A stretch of DNA of 64,000 nt. Origin: Phormidium tenue FACHB-1052. Its GTDB lineage: Bacteria; Cyanobacteriota; Cyanobacteriia; Phormidesmidales; Phormidesmidaceae. The position numbers were made by a program, and so were the translations under genes. How positions within the stretch are numbered: the first letter of the stretch is position 1; each line of letters opens with the position of its first letter. The DNA lies in assembly GCF_014696675.1 (NCBI RefSeq), contig NZ_JACJQN010000007.1, positions 124,001-188,000 on the forward strand, given 5' to 3'. Below, piece by piece: positions 5,604-48,802 of the stretch. Under the pieces are notes generated by a model. The model had not been told where the DNA came from. It ran no database searches and saw only the letters and a program-made list of their open reading frames with translations.

Positions 5604-5608
5604 TCGTA

Positions 5609-5797
5609 CTTGCTTCGCGCTAGCCTGTGCTTGCTTCGCGTTGACCCGTACTTGCTTCGCGTTGACCCGTACTTGCTTCGCACTGGACTGCACTTGCTTC
5701 GCACTAGCCTGTACTTGCTTTGCGCTGGTCTGTACTTGCTTCGCGTTGGCCCGTACTTGCTTCGCGCTGACCTGTACTTGCTTATCACCAAGCTGTG
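5609..5797. repeat. 21-bp tandem repeat array, eight full units plus a degenerate one
   Basis: Units begin CTTGCTTCGCG and recur exactly every 21 bp at 5609, 5630, 5651, 5672, 5693, 5714, 5735 and 5756, with a degenerate unit from 5777 (CTTGCTTATCACC). Units 2 and 3 are identical; the others differ mainly at four to six positions. Because 21 is divisible by three, several frames remain open as heptapeptide repeats. None has a convincing start or a known homologue, so I treat the array as non-coding. It follows the sdhC stop by 60 bases. Confidence 0.8.
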
Positions 5798-36471: not shown

Positions 36472-36785
36472 ACCGCTGAGCACACCCTGGTTTCCTAGAG
36501 CGCTCCTGCATTTGATATAGATAGGCATGCTGCATCTAAATAGATATGCGTCCTACACCTAAATAGAGATATATAAAGGATGACGCTATCAACGCAAAGG
36601 GGCTCGTTTTTCTTATTTCAATGGTTAAATCAAGTAGTTTAAGACTTGCCAAGGCAGTTTGGTTTTTTCCAATGAAGTACTCTATAGTTGTCTAGCATCA
36701 GCCAGGGTTTAGACTTTTAGGGCTTAGGTGTTATCTTCGGTTATCTAGTACGGGTAATTACTATATTTCTAGGGCCTTCAACTCT
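36472..36785. other. ftsZ upstream region
   Basis: This 314-base spacer is AT-rich. It includes a short imperfect direct repeat (a CTAAATAGATAT-type sequence) between about 36534 and 36572. It presumably carries an ftsZ promoter. I recognise no RNA gene. Confidence 0.35.
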
Positions 36786-40138: not shown

Positions 40139-40353
40139 GGCTGGCAGCCTCCCCATTGCTCTGTGTACCCTGCCAGCTTAGAAAAGATGCTGGCCCAATG
40201 ACCAGGGGCAATGGCACGCCGTCTCAGGCGGAAAACCCCACCCCCCTAGCCCCAGGCTAAGCAAAACTAGCAACAATGAGGATAGTCAGAAATCTTACGT
40301 TACTCTAGCGGCTTGAGCGGTGTAGCGAATTGCCCGTTAAGCGCACAAACTAA

Positions 40354-40451
40354 AAGACCCGGAGTCCACGCCTGCCACAAGCATCCCGTAATGCTGCTAC
40401 CTTCCGGTCCTGACATGATTTGGGCGTTGCGACCGCATGGGTCCGAGTCTT
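40354..40451 (-). ncRNA. ffs: Signal recognition particle RNA (small bacterial type)
   Basis: The minus strand carries the universally conserved domain-IV sequence TCAGGACCGGAAGGTAGCAG. The ends pair: GACTCGGACCC at the 5' end with GACTCCGGGTC at the 3' end. The transcript of about 97 bases is followed by TTTT. The RNA joins Ffh to target nascent membrane proteins. A consensus promoter TATAAT sits in the right place (40456-40461). Confidence 0.93.
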
Positions 40452-46075: not shown

Positions 46076-46600
46076 ATGTACAGCAAAATTTTAGTTGCCC
46101 TAGACAACAGCCCTACCAGCAACGCCTTATTTGACCAAGCCCTTGAGCTAGCCCAGGCCACTGATGGCGCACTCCTGCTGGTGCACAGCCTGTCAAATCA
46201 AGACGAAAGCAGCCCCCTGCCCATGTCGGCCCAGCTCGACAATATCTACTGGGCTCCTGGCACCGAGCTTGACCTAGAGGCCTGGCGACTAGCCTGGACA
46301 CGCTACGAAAATGAGAGCCTCGATCGCCTGCGTCACTATGCCGCCACCGCCAATACGGCGGGAGTCCCCACCGAGTTTCGGCAGTTGATTGGCAACCCTG
46401 CCACTGTGATCTGCAAAGCCGCCCAAGAATGGGGAGCAGACTTGATTCTAATCGGCAACCGAGGCCGCACTGGCCTATCAGAACTGGTGCTCGGCAGCGT
46501 CAGCAACCACGTCATGCACCGCGCCACCTGCTCTGTACTGGTGATGAAAGCCAAAACCCCCAGCCCCACCAATACACCTATCACCGCAGGCGTCGCCTAA
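46076..46600 (+). CDS. Universal stress protein (UspA family)
   Basis: The product has 174 residues, one Usp domain. KILVALDNSPTSNALFDQAL starts the fold. The ATP-binding loop GNRGRTGLSELVLGSVSNHV fits the G-2X-G-9X-G-S/T rule, so ATP binding is likely. A His-containing N-terminal loop LLVHSLSNQDESSPL is of ordinary length. Role is general stress survival. It is the last gene before the oriC-associated repeat array. Confidence 0.9.
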   Translation: MYSKILVALDNSPTSNALFDQALELAQATDGALLLVHSLSNQDESSPLPMSAQLDNIYWAPGTELDLEAWRLAWTRYENESLDRLRHYAATANTAGVPTEFRQLIGNPATVICKAAQEWGADLILIGNRGRTGLSELVLGSVSNHVMHRATCSVLVMKAKTPSPTNTPITAGVA

Positions 46601-46616: not shown

Positions 46617-46633
46617 GTAGGAAGGTATCCTAC
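46617..46633 (+). terminator. Small hairpin after the universal stress protein gene
   Basis: GTAGGA (46617-46622) pairs with TCCTAC (46628-46633). It has no strong T-run; it is a weak terminator candidate placed 17 bases after the stop. Confidence 0.35.
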
Positions 46634-46736
46634 ACAGACATCGTGAGTTCCATGGACATACATCCGGGTGCCTCTACCAGGAAAGACTCCTACCTCCATG
46701 CAAGGTGCTTACGAAAAACTGTTCTGGCAGGTGTTT

Positions 46737-47108
46737 GGGATCCCATTTAGCTAAGAAATCTCTTCCCATCTCTAGCGAAAAGTGTAGGATTGCCTTACGG
46801 CAGCTATTTGGGATCCCATTTAGTCAATAGGAACTTCCATTCCTCAATAAAAGGTGTAGGATTATCTTAAAGAAGACGTTTGGGATCCCAATTGGCCCAA
46901 AAACCTCTTTCCATATTTAGACAAAAGGTGTAGGATTGCCTTACAGCAACCAAATGGGATCCCATTAGCCCATAAAAGTGTCCCATCCCCCAATAAAAGG
47001 TGTAGGATTATCTTAAAGCAGACGTTTGGGATCCCATTTGGCTAAGAAATCTCTTCCCATCTCTAGCCAAAAGGTGTAAGCTAGCCTCAAGCAGATATTT
47101 GGGATCCC
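46737..47108. repeat. Origin-proximal array of GGGATCCC palindromes spaced 72-74 bp
   Basis: The core GGGATCCC occurs at 46737, 46810, 46882, 46956, 47028 and 47101; intervals are 73, 72, 74, 72 and 73 bp. A second motif, GTGTAGGAT, recurs at 46782, 46854, 46928 and 47000, with a variant GTGTAAGCT at 47074. Units 1 and 5 are almost identical (CTAAGAAATCTCTTCCCAT), unit 3 resembles them, and units 2 and 4 share ATTATCTTAAAG, so the array alternates A-B-A-B-A. 73 bp is close to seven helical turns, which would put all palindromes on one face of the DNA. No frame or RNA explains it. Confidence 0.88.
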
Positions 47109-47187
47109 AAGAGAGGCACAGTCTGAAGAAAATGTAACAATTTGTGATCATTTTCTTCAATATCCTTGGGGAAAACAGTGCAGAAAC

Positions 47188-47259: not shown

Positions 47260-47268
47260 TGTGGAAAC
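47260..47268 (-). promoter_or_regulatory. DnaA-box-like GTTTCCACA
   Basis: The plus strand reads TGTGGAAAC, giving GTTTCCACA on the minus strand, two changes from consensus. Confidence 0.5.
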
Positions 47269-47341
47269 CTTAGATCTTTTTCCAGGCTTTTTCCCCAGCG
47301 AAGTTAGCAATGCAACCCATAGTTGCCAGACTTTTCAAAGG

Positions 47342-47350
47342 TTATCCACA
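47342..47350 (+). promoter_or_regulatory. Perfect DnaA box TTATCCACA
   Basis: An exact match to the DnaA-box consensus, 13 bases before the CTA triplets. Confidence 0.85.
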
Positions 47351-47381: not shown

Positions 47382-47671
47382 TCTTTTAAATTTTCTTCTT
47401 CCGGAAGGCAGACCTTACTTAACAGGGGCCACACTGAGGGGAACAAAAAAGGGTGGTAGGATGAACGCCCAATCAAAAAGTATCTGCTTTCAAAAACGCT
47501 ATAAAGCTTTTAGGCAAAGGGATCCAGCCCTTCAAAATTTTGTAAAAAGAACGGTTTAACCGGGAATCTATTGCAAAGGTGAGATACTGCTAGTACGGAA
47601 TCAGTCCACCCTCGCAGATGAATCTTCTCGGGTGGCATTCCGCTCCAGTTGCGTTTCTTTTTTCCGTTGCC

Positions 47672-48802
47672 ATGAAGTTTATCTGCCCCCAGAACGAGCT
47701 GAGTGCCCAGCTGTCGTCGGTGAGCCGTGCGGTGTCATCTCGCCCTAGTCGCCCTGTGCTAGCCAATATTTTGGTCAAGGCCGATATTGAGAGTCAGTCG
47801 GTTACCCTGGTGGGCTTTGACGAGGTGCTGGGCATTGAAAGCCGCTTTAGCGCCCAAGTCGAAGAACCCGGCACACTCACTCTGCCCTCTAAACTCTGGG
47901 GCGATATTGTTTCTCGCCTGGCCAATGAAGACATCACTCTAGAATCTGAGGGCGATAGCACTACCGTGACGCTTACCTCATCCTCGGGCCGTTATGAGGT
48001 GCGAGGCCTGAGTGCTGAAGACTACCCCTCGCTGCCCACGGTGGAAGAGGGCGAAGCGATTTCGCTTTCGGCTGATGCGCTGCTCAGTGGCCTACGCGGC
48101 TCGCTTTTTGCCACTAGCGGCGACGAAACCAAACAGGTGCTCACCGGCGTGCACCTGCTCTCTGAAACCGATGCCCTAGAGTTTGCCGCCACCGATGGCC
48201 ACCGTCTGGCCGTGGTGCAAACCACCGACGAATCGGCTACCGATACGCCAGTGATGGATGTCACTGTGCCTGCTAAGGCGCTGCGCGAGCTAGAGCGCAT
48301 GATTCAGGGCTATACCTCTAATGAGCCGGTGGCCCTACGGCTCGATGAAACTCAGGTGTTGTTTGACCTGGGGGCACAGCGTCTCACTACCCGTCTGCTC
48401 GAAGGGCAGTACCCCAACTACCGCCAGCTGCTGCCGAAGCAGTTTGCCCGTCAGGTGACAGTCGATCGCAAAGGGTTGATGTCGAGTCTGGAGCGTATTG
48501 CCGTGCTGGCCAGCCAGAAAAATGACATCATTAAAATCACCCTCAACCCTGGTGATCAGAGCATTGCTCTCTCGGTCGAAGCGCAGGAAGTCGGCAGCGG
48601 GCGCGAAGAATTGCCCGCCCAGGTGAGCGGTGACGAGCTGGATATCGCCTTTAATGTGCGCTATCTGCTGGATGGTTTGAAGGCGTTTGACACTACTGAG
48701 GTGCAAATGCAGTGCAATGCGGCGACTAGCCCGGCGGTGTTTGTGCCCCTGGGGGAAACTAAGATTACCTACCTGGTCATGCCCGTGCAAATTCGGGGGT
48801 AG
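47672..48802 (+). CDS. dnaN: DNA polymerase III sliding clamp (beta subunit)
   Basis: The product has 376 residues and three repeated clamp domains: MKFICPQNELSAQLSSVSRA begins domain 1; FAATDGHRLAVVQTT and LLEGQYPNYRQLLPKQF mark domain 2; domain 3 ends with ITYLVMPVQIRG. The clamp encircles DNA and tethers the replicative polymerase. The ATG at 47672 is chosen; the upstream frame to 47618 lacks similarity. The 5' leader from the origin is about 270 bases and contains no other convincing gene. Confidence 0.95.
   Translation: MKFICPQNELSAQLSSVSRAVSSRPSRPVLANILVKADIESQSVTLVGFDEVLGIESRFSAQVEEPGTLTLPSKLWGDIVSRLANEDITLESEGDSTTVTLTSSSGRYEVRGLSAEDYPSLPTVEEGEAISLSADALLSGLRGSLFATSGDETKQVLTGVHLLSETDALEFAATDGHRLAVVQTTDESATDTPVMDVTVPAKALRELERMIQGYTSNEPVALRLDETQVLFDLGAQRLTTRLLEGQYPNYRQLLPKQFARQVTVDRKGLMSSLERIAVLASQKNDIIKITLNPGDQSIALSVEAQEVGSGREELPAQVSGDELDIAFNVRYLLDGLKAFDTTEVQMQCNAATSPAVFVPLGETKITYLVMPVQIRG

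Follow-up and report, generated by a model that had tools for sequence, protein, structure and literature searches.

The known systems closest to the sites described here fall into a few kinds. In parS/ParB centromeres, palindromic sites are located near the origin. The oriC of E. coli carries clusters of GATC, and sequestration by SeqA times re-initiation there. Iteron arrays are tandem sites in variable number, located beside the origins of plasmids and secondary chromosomes.

For cyanobacteria, an oriC with DnaA boxes upstream of dnaN has been described, for example in Cyanothece ATCC 51142 (PMC4674748, in the part available). In polyploid cyanobacteria, no more than one or two chromosome copies are replicated at once, and factors besides DnaA have been suggested to restrict this, according to the accessible text of PMC6478999. 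The octamer GGGATCCC is given in the available part of PMC4390886 as a HIP1 derivative in the hot-spring Synechococcus strains JA-3-3Ab and JA-2-3B, where it is dispersed and over-represented genome-wide. A search of the open full-text PMC literature, with subscription papers outside its scope, gave no paper recognizable as dealing with GGATCC, or with arrays of palindromes, at the origin of a cyanobacterium.

The locus described here is in the window, i.e. the whole 64-kb stretch of DNA that was analyzed, from a genome that belongs to Nodosilinea. It contains an array of GGATCC-centered palindromes on one side of the DnaA-like boxes before dnaN and a single GGATCC on the other side.

Organization of the origin region

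The array is located between a universal stress protein gene (usp, 46076-46600) and the non-coding region with the DnaA-like boxes before dnaN (Table 1). The conserved start of dnaN (MKFICPQN) is at 47672, as compared to 47618 for the start of the longest open reading frame. The DnaA-like boxes upstream of the gene occur in both orientations. DnaA-box patterns match at -451, -430, -329, -276 and -2234 from dnaN, and none match in the array (-880 to -516). A DnaA-box titration cluster of the datA kind was rejected, as the array repeats contain no DnaA boxes.

The sampled GC skew of genome G011 is -0.042, -0.038 and -0.027 before dnaN and 0.062 and 0.029 after it. In genome G008, also sampled, there is a weak sign change, from -0.051 before dnaN to -0.013 and then 0.012, 0.009 and 0.009 after it. 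The profile of the window itself is noisy. The boxes and the GC skew suggest that the region upstream of dnaN is oriC-like and would act as an origin.

The conserved TAGGAT upstream of dnaN may serve as the -10 element of a promoter, and GAGATACTGCTAGTACGG is probably a promoter or leader element of this gene. The GATACTGCTA core of GAGATACTGCTAGTACGG is also visible in several outgroup species. A promoter scan gave one site in the origin region and none in the array. The element TGTAACAATTTGTGATC (47133-47149) adjoins the left GGATCC and is conserved in the genus. It resembles the RpaB (HLR1) binding pattern; if it is such a site, a light-stress regulator would be tied to the origin.

Table 1. 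Features of the array and the origin region, in coordinates of the window
Feature	Position	Strand	Basis
Tandem array, six GGATCC-centered palindromes, five 72-74 bp units	46734-47110		TRF; three further species of the clade have homologous units
GGGATCCC 1, outermost	46737-46744		word search
First in-phase GTGTAGGAT motif, including AAA lead	46779-46790	+	absent from units of the neighboring clade
GGGATCCC 2	46810-46817		word search
GGGATCCC 3	46882-46889		word search
GGGATCCC 4	46956-46963		word search
GGGATCCC 5	47028-47035		word search
GGGATCCC 6, conserved left origin-flanking site	47101-47108		GGATCC here in 17/19 aligned origins, and in G003
Conserved TGTAAC-N4-TGTGATC element, 33 bp inside the left site	47133-47149	+	alignment; GATC column in 14/19
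DnaA-like box TGGGGAAAA	47167-47175	+	offset 65-66 from left GGATCC in 16/16 aligned copies
DnaA-like box TGTGGAAAA	47188-47196	+	box alignment
DnaA-like box TGTGGAAAC	47260-47268	+	offset 158-159 in 16/16 copies
DnaA-like box (TTTTCCCCA on +)	47289-47297	-	offset 187-188 in 16/16 copies
DnaA box (TTATCCACA on +)	47342-47350	-	pattern search, alignment
Conserved TAGGAT, context GGGTG-TAGGATG-rCGCCC (possible -10 element)	47457-47462	+	17/19 origins
Conserved right origin-flanking GGATCC	47520-47525		18/19 aligned origins, and G003
GAGATACTGCTAGTACGG, most conserved non-coding block	47581-47598	+	its windows in 16-19 of 19
dnaN (DNA polymerase III beta clamp), conserved start	47672-48802	+	Pfam; start from homologues

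Structure of the array

An exact-word search of the 64-kb window finds GGGATCCC six times in the array and 0 times outside it. Consecutive copies are 73, 72, 74, 72 and 73 bp apart, and the intervals of 72-74 bp given in the preliminary description of this DNA are therefore exact. That description had also placed the end of the array just before the DnaA boxes, and the first DnaA-like box indeed begins 65 bp past the start of the last GGATCC. Of the five in-phase GTGTAGGAT-type motifs that it had counted, four are exact (46782, 46854, 46928 and 47000), and the fifth is a degenerate version, GTGTAAGCT, at about 47073.

TRF analysis of the segment 46734-47110 gives a period of 72 bp, with 5.2 copies and 68% matches, and a period of 146 bp matches better (81%). 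The identity is 86% between units 1 and 5 and 85% between units 2 and 4, in agreement with the A-B-A-B-A order of unit types noted earlier. Unit 3 shares 77% identity with unit 1, 74% with unit 5, 66% with unit 2 and 69% with unit 4. Duplication of a 146-bp block of two units would leave such a pattern.

A reverse-strand copy of GTGTAGGAT is found immediately upstream of the array (46627-46635). The reverse strand of a 23-bp tandem repeat at 36517-36567 reads TTAGGTGTAGGA(C/T)GC, which resembles the GTGTAGGAT of the array. Elsewhere in the window are a 21-bp tandem repeat at 5606-5783 (8.5 copies, 83% matches) and, on the minus strand at 40353-40449, a bacterial small SRP RNA.

Conservation of the GGATCC sites in Nodosilinea

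The dnaN loci were taken from a species-genome scan (best 80 of 503 relatives) and from a search across the genus, in which 25 of the 26 genomes had dnaN, one of these as a fragment only. The core-genus comparison covers 20 distinct origins, 19 of them aligned and the other from G003. Four of the genomes have two origins, and for these the copy next to dnaN was used in the count of 20. Duplicates between the collections were left out, as was L110, which has no anchor and whose twin L021 has only 656 bp upstream. The spacing analysis covers sites as far as -1750.

GGATCC is present to the left of the DnaA-like boxes in 18 of the 20 origins (L018 and L094 being the exceptions) and to the right in 19 (except in L016), corresponding to 17/19 and 18/19 of the aligned origins. 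The right site in the window, at 47520, is the seventh GGATCC of the same set, on the opposite side of the origin from the array. The background over 629 hexamer windows has a median of 5/19, and the windows neighboring both GGATCC sites are mostly at 2-6. The windows that are kept as well as the flanking GGATCC are those of the DnaA-like boxes, TAGGAT and GAGATACTGCTAGTACGG. The bases flanking the hexamer are poorly conserved, and the word itself is exact.

The left and right GGATCC of the 12 single-origin species are 415-418 bp apart, and those of G003 are 420 bp apart; pairs for the box-offset alignment were chosen by a distance of 395-425 bp, which bounds the distance range there. The three boxes with offsets in Table 1 keep them in all 16 copies, i.e. 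the 12 single origins and four distal copies (see below). Compensating indels between the left and right sites were not used, as the segment variances are inflated by misplaced anchors.

No GGATCC pair is present in the seven species that GTDB places in this genus but that fall outside the core; L108 has one GGATCC, at a different spacing. Across 66 further loci with at least 600 bp upstream, GGATCC occurs twice in total in the 700 bp upstream, and no locus has two.

As judged from the aligned sequences, GGATCC is a fixed component of the predicted chromosomal origin of Nodosilinea, with one site on each side of the DnaA-box region. The pair is not strictly required, since the left site is missing from two origins and the right site from one.

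Arrays in related species and their spacing

The array in the window is a tandem amplification of the left origin-flanking GGATCC, running outward from the origin. The same long array is found in FACHB-60 (L010), with seven GGGATCCC 71-73 bp apart and two adjacent units that are identical. Shorter series are present in L008, with four GGATCC (74, 65 and 74 bp apart), and in L009, with two (74 bp). With TRF on the 2 kb upstream of dnaN, in the loci of the best 80 of 503 relatives, a period of about 73 bp is found only in L010 besides the window. The position next to the origin and upstream of dnaN, as first described for the window, is therefore the position of the array in close relatives as well.

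A neighboring clade, formed by L011 (WJT8-NPBG4), L020 (FACHB-131, identical to G031), G010 and G007, has 11-13 GGATCC within 1.7 kb upstream of dnaN. Its units are mostly 86-89 bp long. They can be matched to the 73-bp units of the clade that includes the window through the shared segments GGATCC.ATTTAGC and CAAAAGG, which indicates that the arrays of both clades are homologous. GTGTAGGAT is absent from the units of the neighboring clade; an array of GTGTAGGAT promoters was rejected on account of this loss and of the promoter scan. In the dnaN tree, the two array clades are supported individually (96/91 and 100/99), and their sister pairing is not. GGATCC is identical in all four genomes of the neighboring clade at 32 of its 47 occurrences; for hexamers overall, the figure is 1180 of 6620. 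Among the hexamers seen at least 12 times, it is surpassed by DnaA-box words and GATCCA alone.

The regular spacing in the window had been taken as a sign of selection for binding on one face of the DNA. This is not borne out by the relatives. The spacings are 71-74 bp, with one of 65 bp, in the window's clade, and 22, 50, 56-58, 71, 86-89, 109 and 132 bp in the neighboring clade. The pooled distinct spacings of nine genomes have no common phase at pitches of 10.2-10.8 (R 0.10-0.17, p 0.6-0.8), and the neighboring clade alone gives R 0.39-0.48 (p 0.07-0.17), with a non-integral phase. The five spacings of the window have an R of 0.90 at all pitches tried, and any regular tandem repeat would give the same. 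Comparison of the 73-bp spacing with the unit sequence, as proposed in the preliminary description, finds the GGATCC core conserved and the spacing variable among relatives. The conserved entity is the hexamer GGATCC, not the 73-bp period.

Tandem duplication of the origin in the neighboring clade

In the four genomes of this clade (L011, L020/L168, L166 and L167), the entire origin region is present in two tandem copies upstream of dnaN, located in L011 at about -1494 to -1080 and -558 to -154 from the dnaN start. The copies are 75-77% identical over about 520 bp. In the tree, the distal copies cluster together and so do the proximal copies (support 0.958 and 0.952), which places the duplication before the divergence of the clade.

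Of the 165 columns that are invariant in the 12 single-origin species, the distal copies keep 157-160, with a left-right distance of 414-416 bp, and the proximal copies 129-138, with a distance of 399-404 bp. Both flanking GGATCC are retained in the proximal copy in all four genomes. GGATCC thus persists in this copy while the DnaA-box architecture decays. The distal origin keeps its own GGATCC pair although dnaN does not directly follow it. This clade is a natural experiment as to which features of the origin are dispensable and which are not.

Distribution outside the origin

A mobile or dispersed repeat of the REP or MITE kind, expected at many unrelated loci, was rejected: the only match of the array DNA in its own genome is itself, and plasmids and phages gave no match. 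AGGTGTAGGATNNC occurs once in the genome. A 15-mer from an array unit matched 13 viral contigs, once each. The pattern GGATCCN{52,82}GGATCC has nine forward matches in the genome, five of which are the expected array pairs, as compared to 14 for the control pattern.

HIP1 (GCGATCGC) occurs 68 times in the window. Derivation of the array from HIP1 was rejected, as GGGATCCC is neither over-represented nor dispersed genome-wide, with 33 copies (six of them in the array); the control, the same word reversed, has 213. A background of 363 kb contains 2 copies of GGGATCCC, with 8.8 expected, and its GGATCC count is 0.34 of that predicted from single-base frequencies. Avoidance of GGATCC was rejected as a special signal, since 14 or more further palindromic hexamers have lower values and the Markov estimate is 1.78. 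The array folds better than shuffled sequences (z -3.69), but its self-complementary repeats pair with each other, and the fold was rejected as evidence for a structured RNA. In L118 and L120, at about 1501-1510, two of the four other genomic TGGGATCCCA sites share TTTGGGATCCCA, followed by CAGGAG.

Possible functions of the GGATCC sites

The element itself is well supported, in its position, its constraint, its geometry relative to the boxes, its amplification and its retention in the decaying copy. As to function, we give a probability of roughly 0.45 to the reading that some symmetric GGATCC-binding factor takes part in the control of the origin, the binder and its role being surmised from the sequence pattern.

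A homodimeric DNA-binding protein would read GGATCC. A dimer is suggested by the symmetric word under constraint and by the bases next to it: the left and array sites tend toward a symmetry of 8 bp, 32 of their 64 distinct contexts having complementary bases at -1 and +1, with 17.7 expected and 0 of 5000 shuffles reaching this count, the contexts being from related sequences and thus non-independent. Two observations count against dimer symmetry. Bases -3 and +3 show the reverse, being complementary less often than in shuffles (11 of 64 contexts, 25.9 expected), and extended symmetry is found in only 1 of 20 right-flank sites. Counting against the binding-factor reading as a whole are the three origins with one site missing, the seven same-genus species without a pair, and the noisy GC skew of the window.

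Located at both edges of the origin, such a protein would join the initiation complex or hold initiation back. The array would raise its local occupancy and, through high avidity or titration, tune initiation in a polyploid cell. A short word that keeps its position on either side of the origin across a genus, and that has multiplied in certain species, would offer a concrete bait for an initiation-restricting factor. An extended form of the binding-factor reading, a lineage-specific system, seems to us rather unlikely. In it, a dedicated dimer would form a complex of fixed geometry with GGATCC at both edges of oriC and would bridge or handcuff origins, the length of the array would set how many chromosome copies fire in the polyploid cell, and the system would have accompanied the duplication of the origin, of which the inner copy would have lost much of its DnaA-box architecture and kept its GGATCC sites.

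A methylation mark is a doubtful explanation. GATC or the entire GGATCC would carry the methyl group, and re-initiation would be timed by a factor that recognizes hemimethylated DNA. This would resemble SeqA in E. coli, except that the factor would be another one and the word longer. The hexamer is exact and its flanks are poorly conserved, as with the recognition words of enzymes, and the genome encodes a D12-class (Dam-like) methyltransferase (PF02086, E 2.5e-63). This enzyme may be specific for GATC, given the near-universal GATC methyltransferases of cyanobacteria reported in the available part of PMC4390886. On the other hand, the density of GATC outside GGATCC shows no enrichment, with 3.9 per kb between the two flanking sites and about 5.4-6.9 per kb in the surrounding loci of the core genus. 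Apart from GGATCC, a single GATC column is widely conserved (14/19). SeqA (PF03925) has 0 matches in the window's genome, with the E. coli control matched. Sequestration had been suggested for the array, and its E. coli kind, through GATC, is not supported by these results. No GGATCC-specific enzyme is recognizable. The search for the BamHI endonuclease family (PF02923) carries no weight here, with 0 matches in 26 genomes and none in the control genomes either. An N6/N4 methyltransferase (322 aa) that recurs in the genus, with adenine methylases and others among its PDB relatives, was rejected as a partner: judging from score and length alone, it also occurs in outgroups that lack the sites, and it does not track the sites.

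Control of dnaN transcription is unlikely. The right site would be an operator or activator site before the dnaN promoter, and the left sites would be auxiliary operators acting through looping. The location of the right GGATCC between the conserved TAGGAT and GAGATACTGCTAGTACGG blocks of the dnaN leader is consistent with this, as is the fact that it is the steadier of the two positions (18/19). However, the array grows away from dnaN, past the DnaA-like boxes, the distal copy in the two-origin clade has its own pair without dnaN directly after it, and the promoter scan also argues against an operator role.

It is improbable that the array is without function, an ordinary tandem repeat with palindromes that seem conserved through recent duplication and concerted evolution. 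Duplication is evident from the alternating units and the 146-bp period, recent turnover from the identical adjacent units in L010, and the number of repeats differs among close species. Nevertheless, species without an array keep a single GGATCC at the same two places, and in the diverged two-origin clade GGATCC is conserved far above background while the unit sequence and spacing change.

A role in segregation or anchoring, with the array as a centromere-like tether of the origin region, is very improbable. The palindromes are clustered beside the origin, and none of the 26 genus genomes searched contains an exact canonical parS (TGTTNCACGTGNAACA), so that the usual centromere is missing. 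However, most core species have only one site per side, a number too small for the cluster on which ParB typically loads, and a tether would not need a fixed distance to the DnaA-like boxes.

Comparison with known systems

The locus shares with parS/ParB centromeres the palindromic sites near the origin, but the word of the array is unrelated, and the canonical parS is absent as an exact word from all 26 genomes. With the E. coli oriC and SeqA it has in common GATC palindromes at the origin and a D12-class methyltransferase. In comparison, SeqA was not found here, GATC is unenriched, and GGATCC is located at the flanks rather than throughout the origin.

Direct repeats beside the origin, in variable number and with titration or handcuffing as plausible functions, are shared with iterons. 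In contrast to iterons, the origin here is chromosomal and linked to dnaN, has DnaA-like boxes, and carries a symmetric core in long, diverged units. None of the six neighboring proteins scanned against Pfam is a Rep protein; they are Usp, DnaN, an amine oxidoreductase, a ChlI-type AAA protein, an acyltransferase, and one without a match.

As in Cyanothece ATCC 51142, the origin is located between another gene and dnaN and has DnaA boxes; the available part of that description (PMC4674748) does not mention flanking palindromes or arrays. The HIP1 derivative of Synechococcus, as given in the accessible text of PMC4390886, is the same octamer, a cyanobacterial palindrome centered on GATC. There it is dispersed and abundant genome-wide, whereas here its distribution is the opposite.
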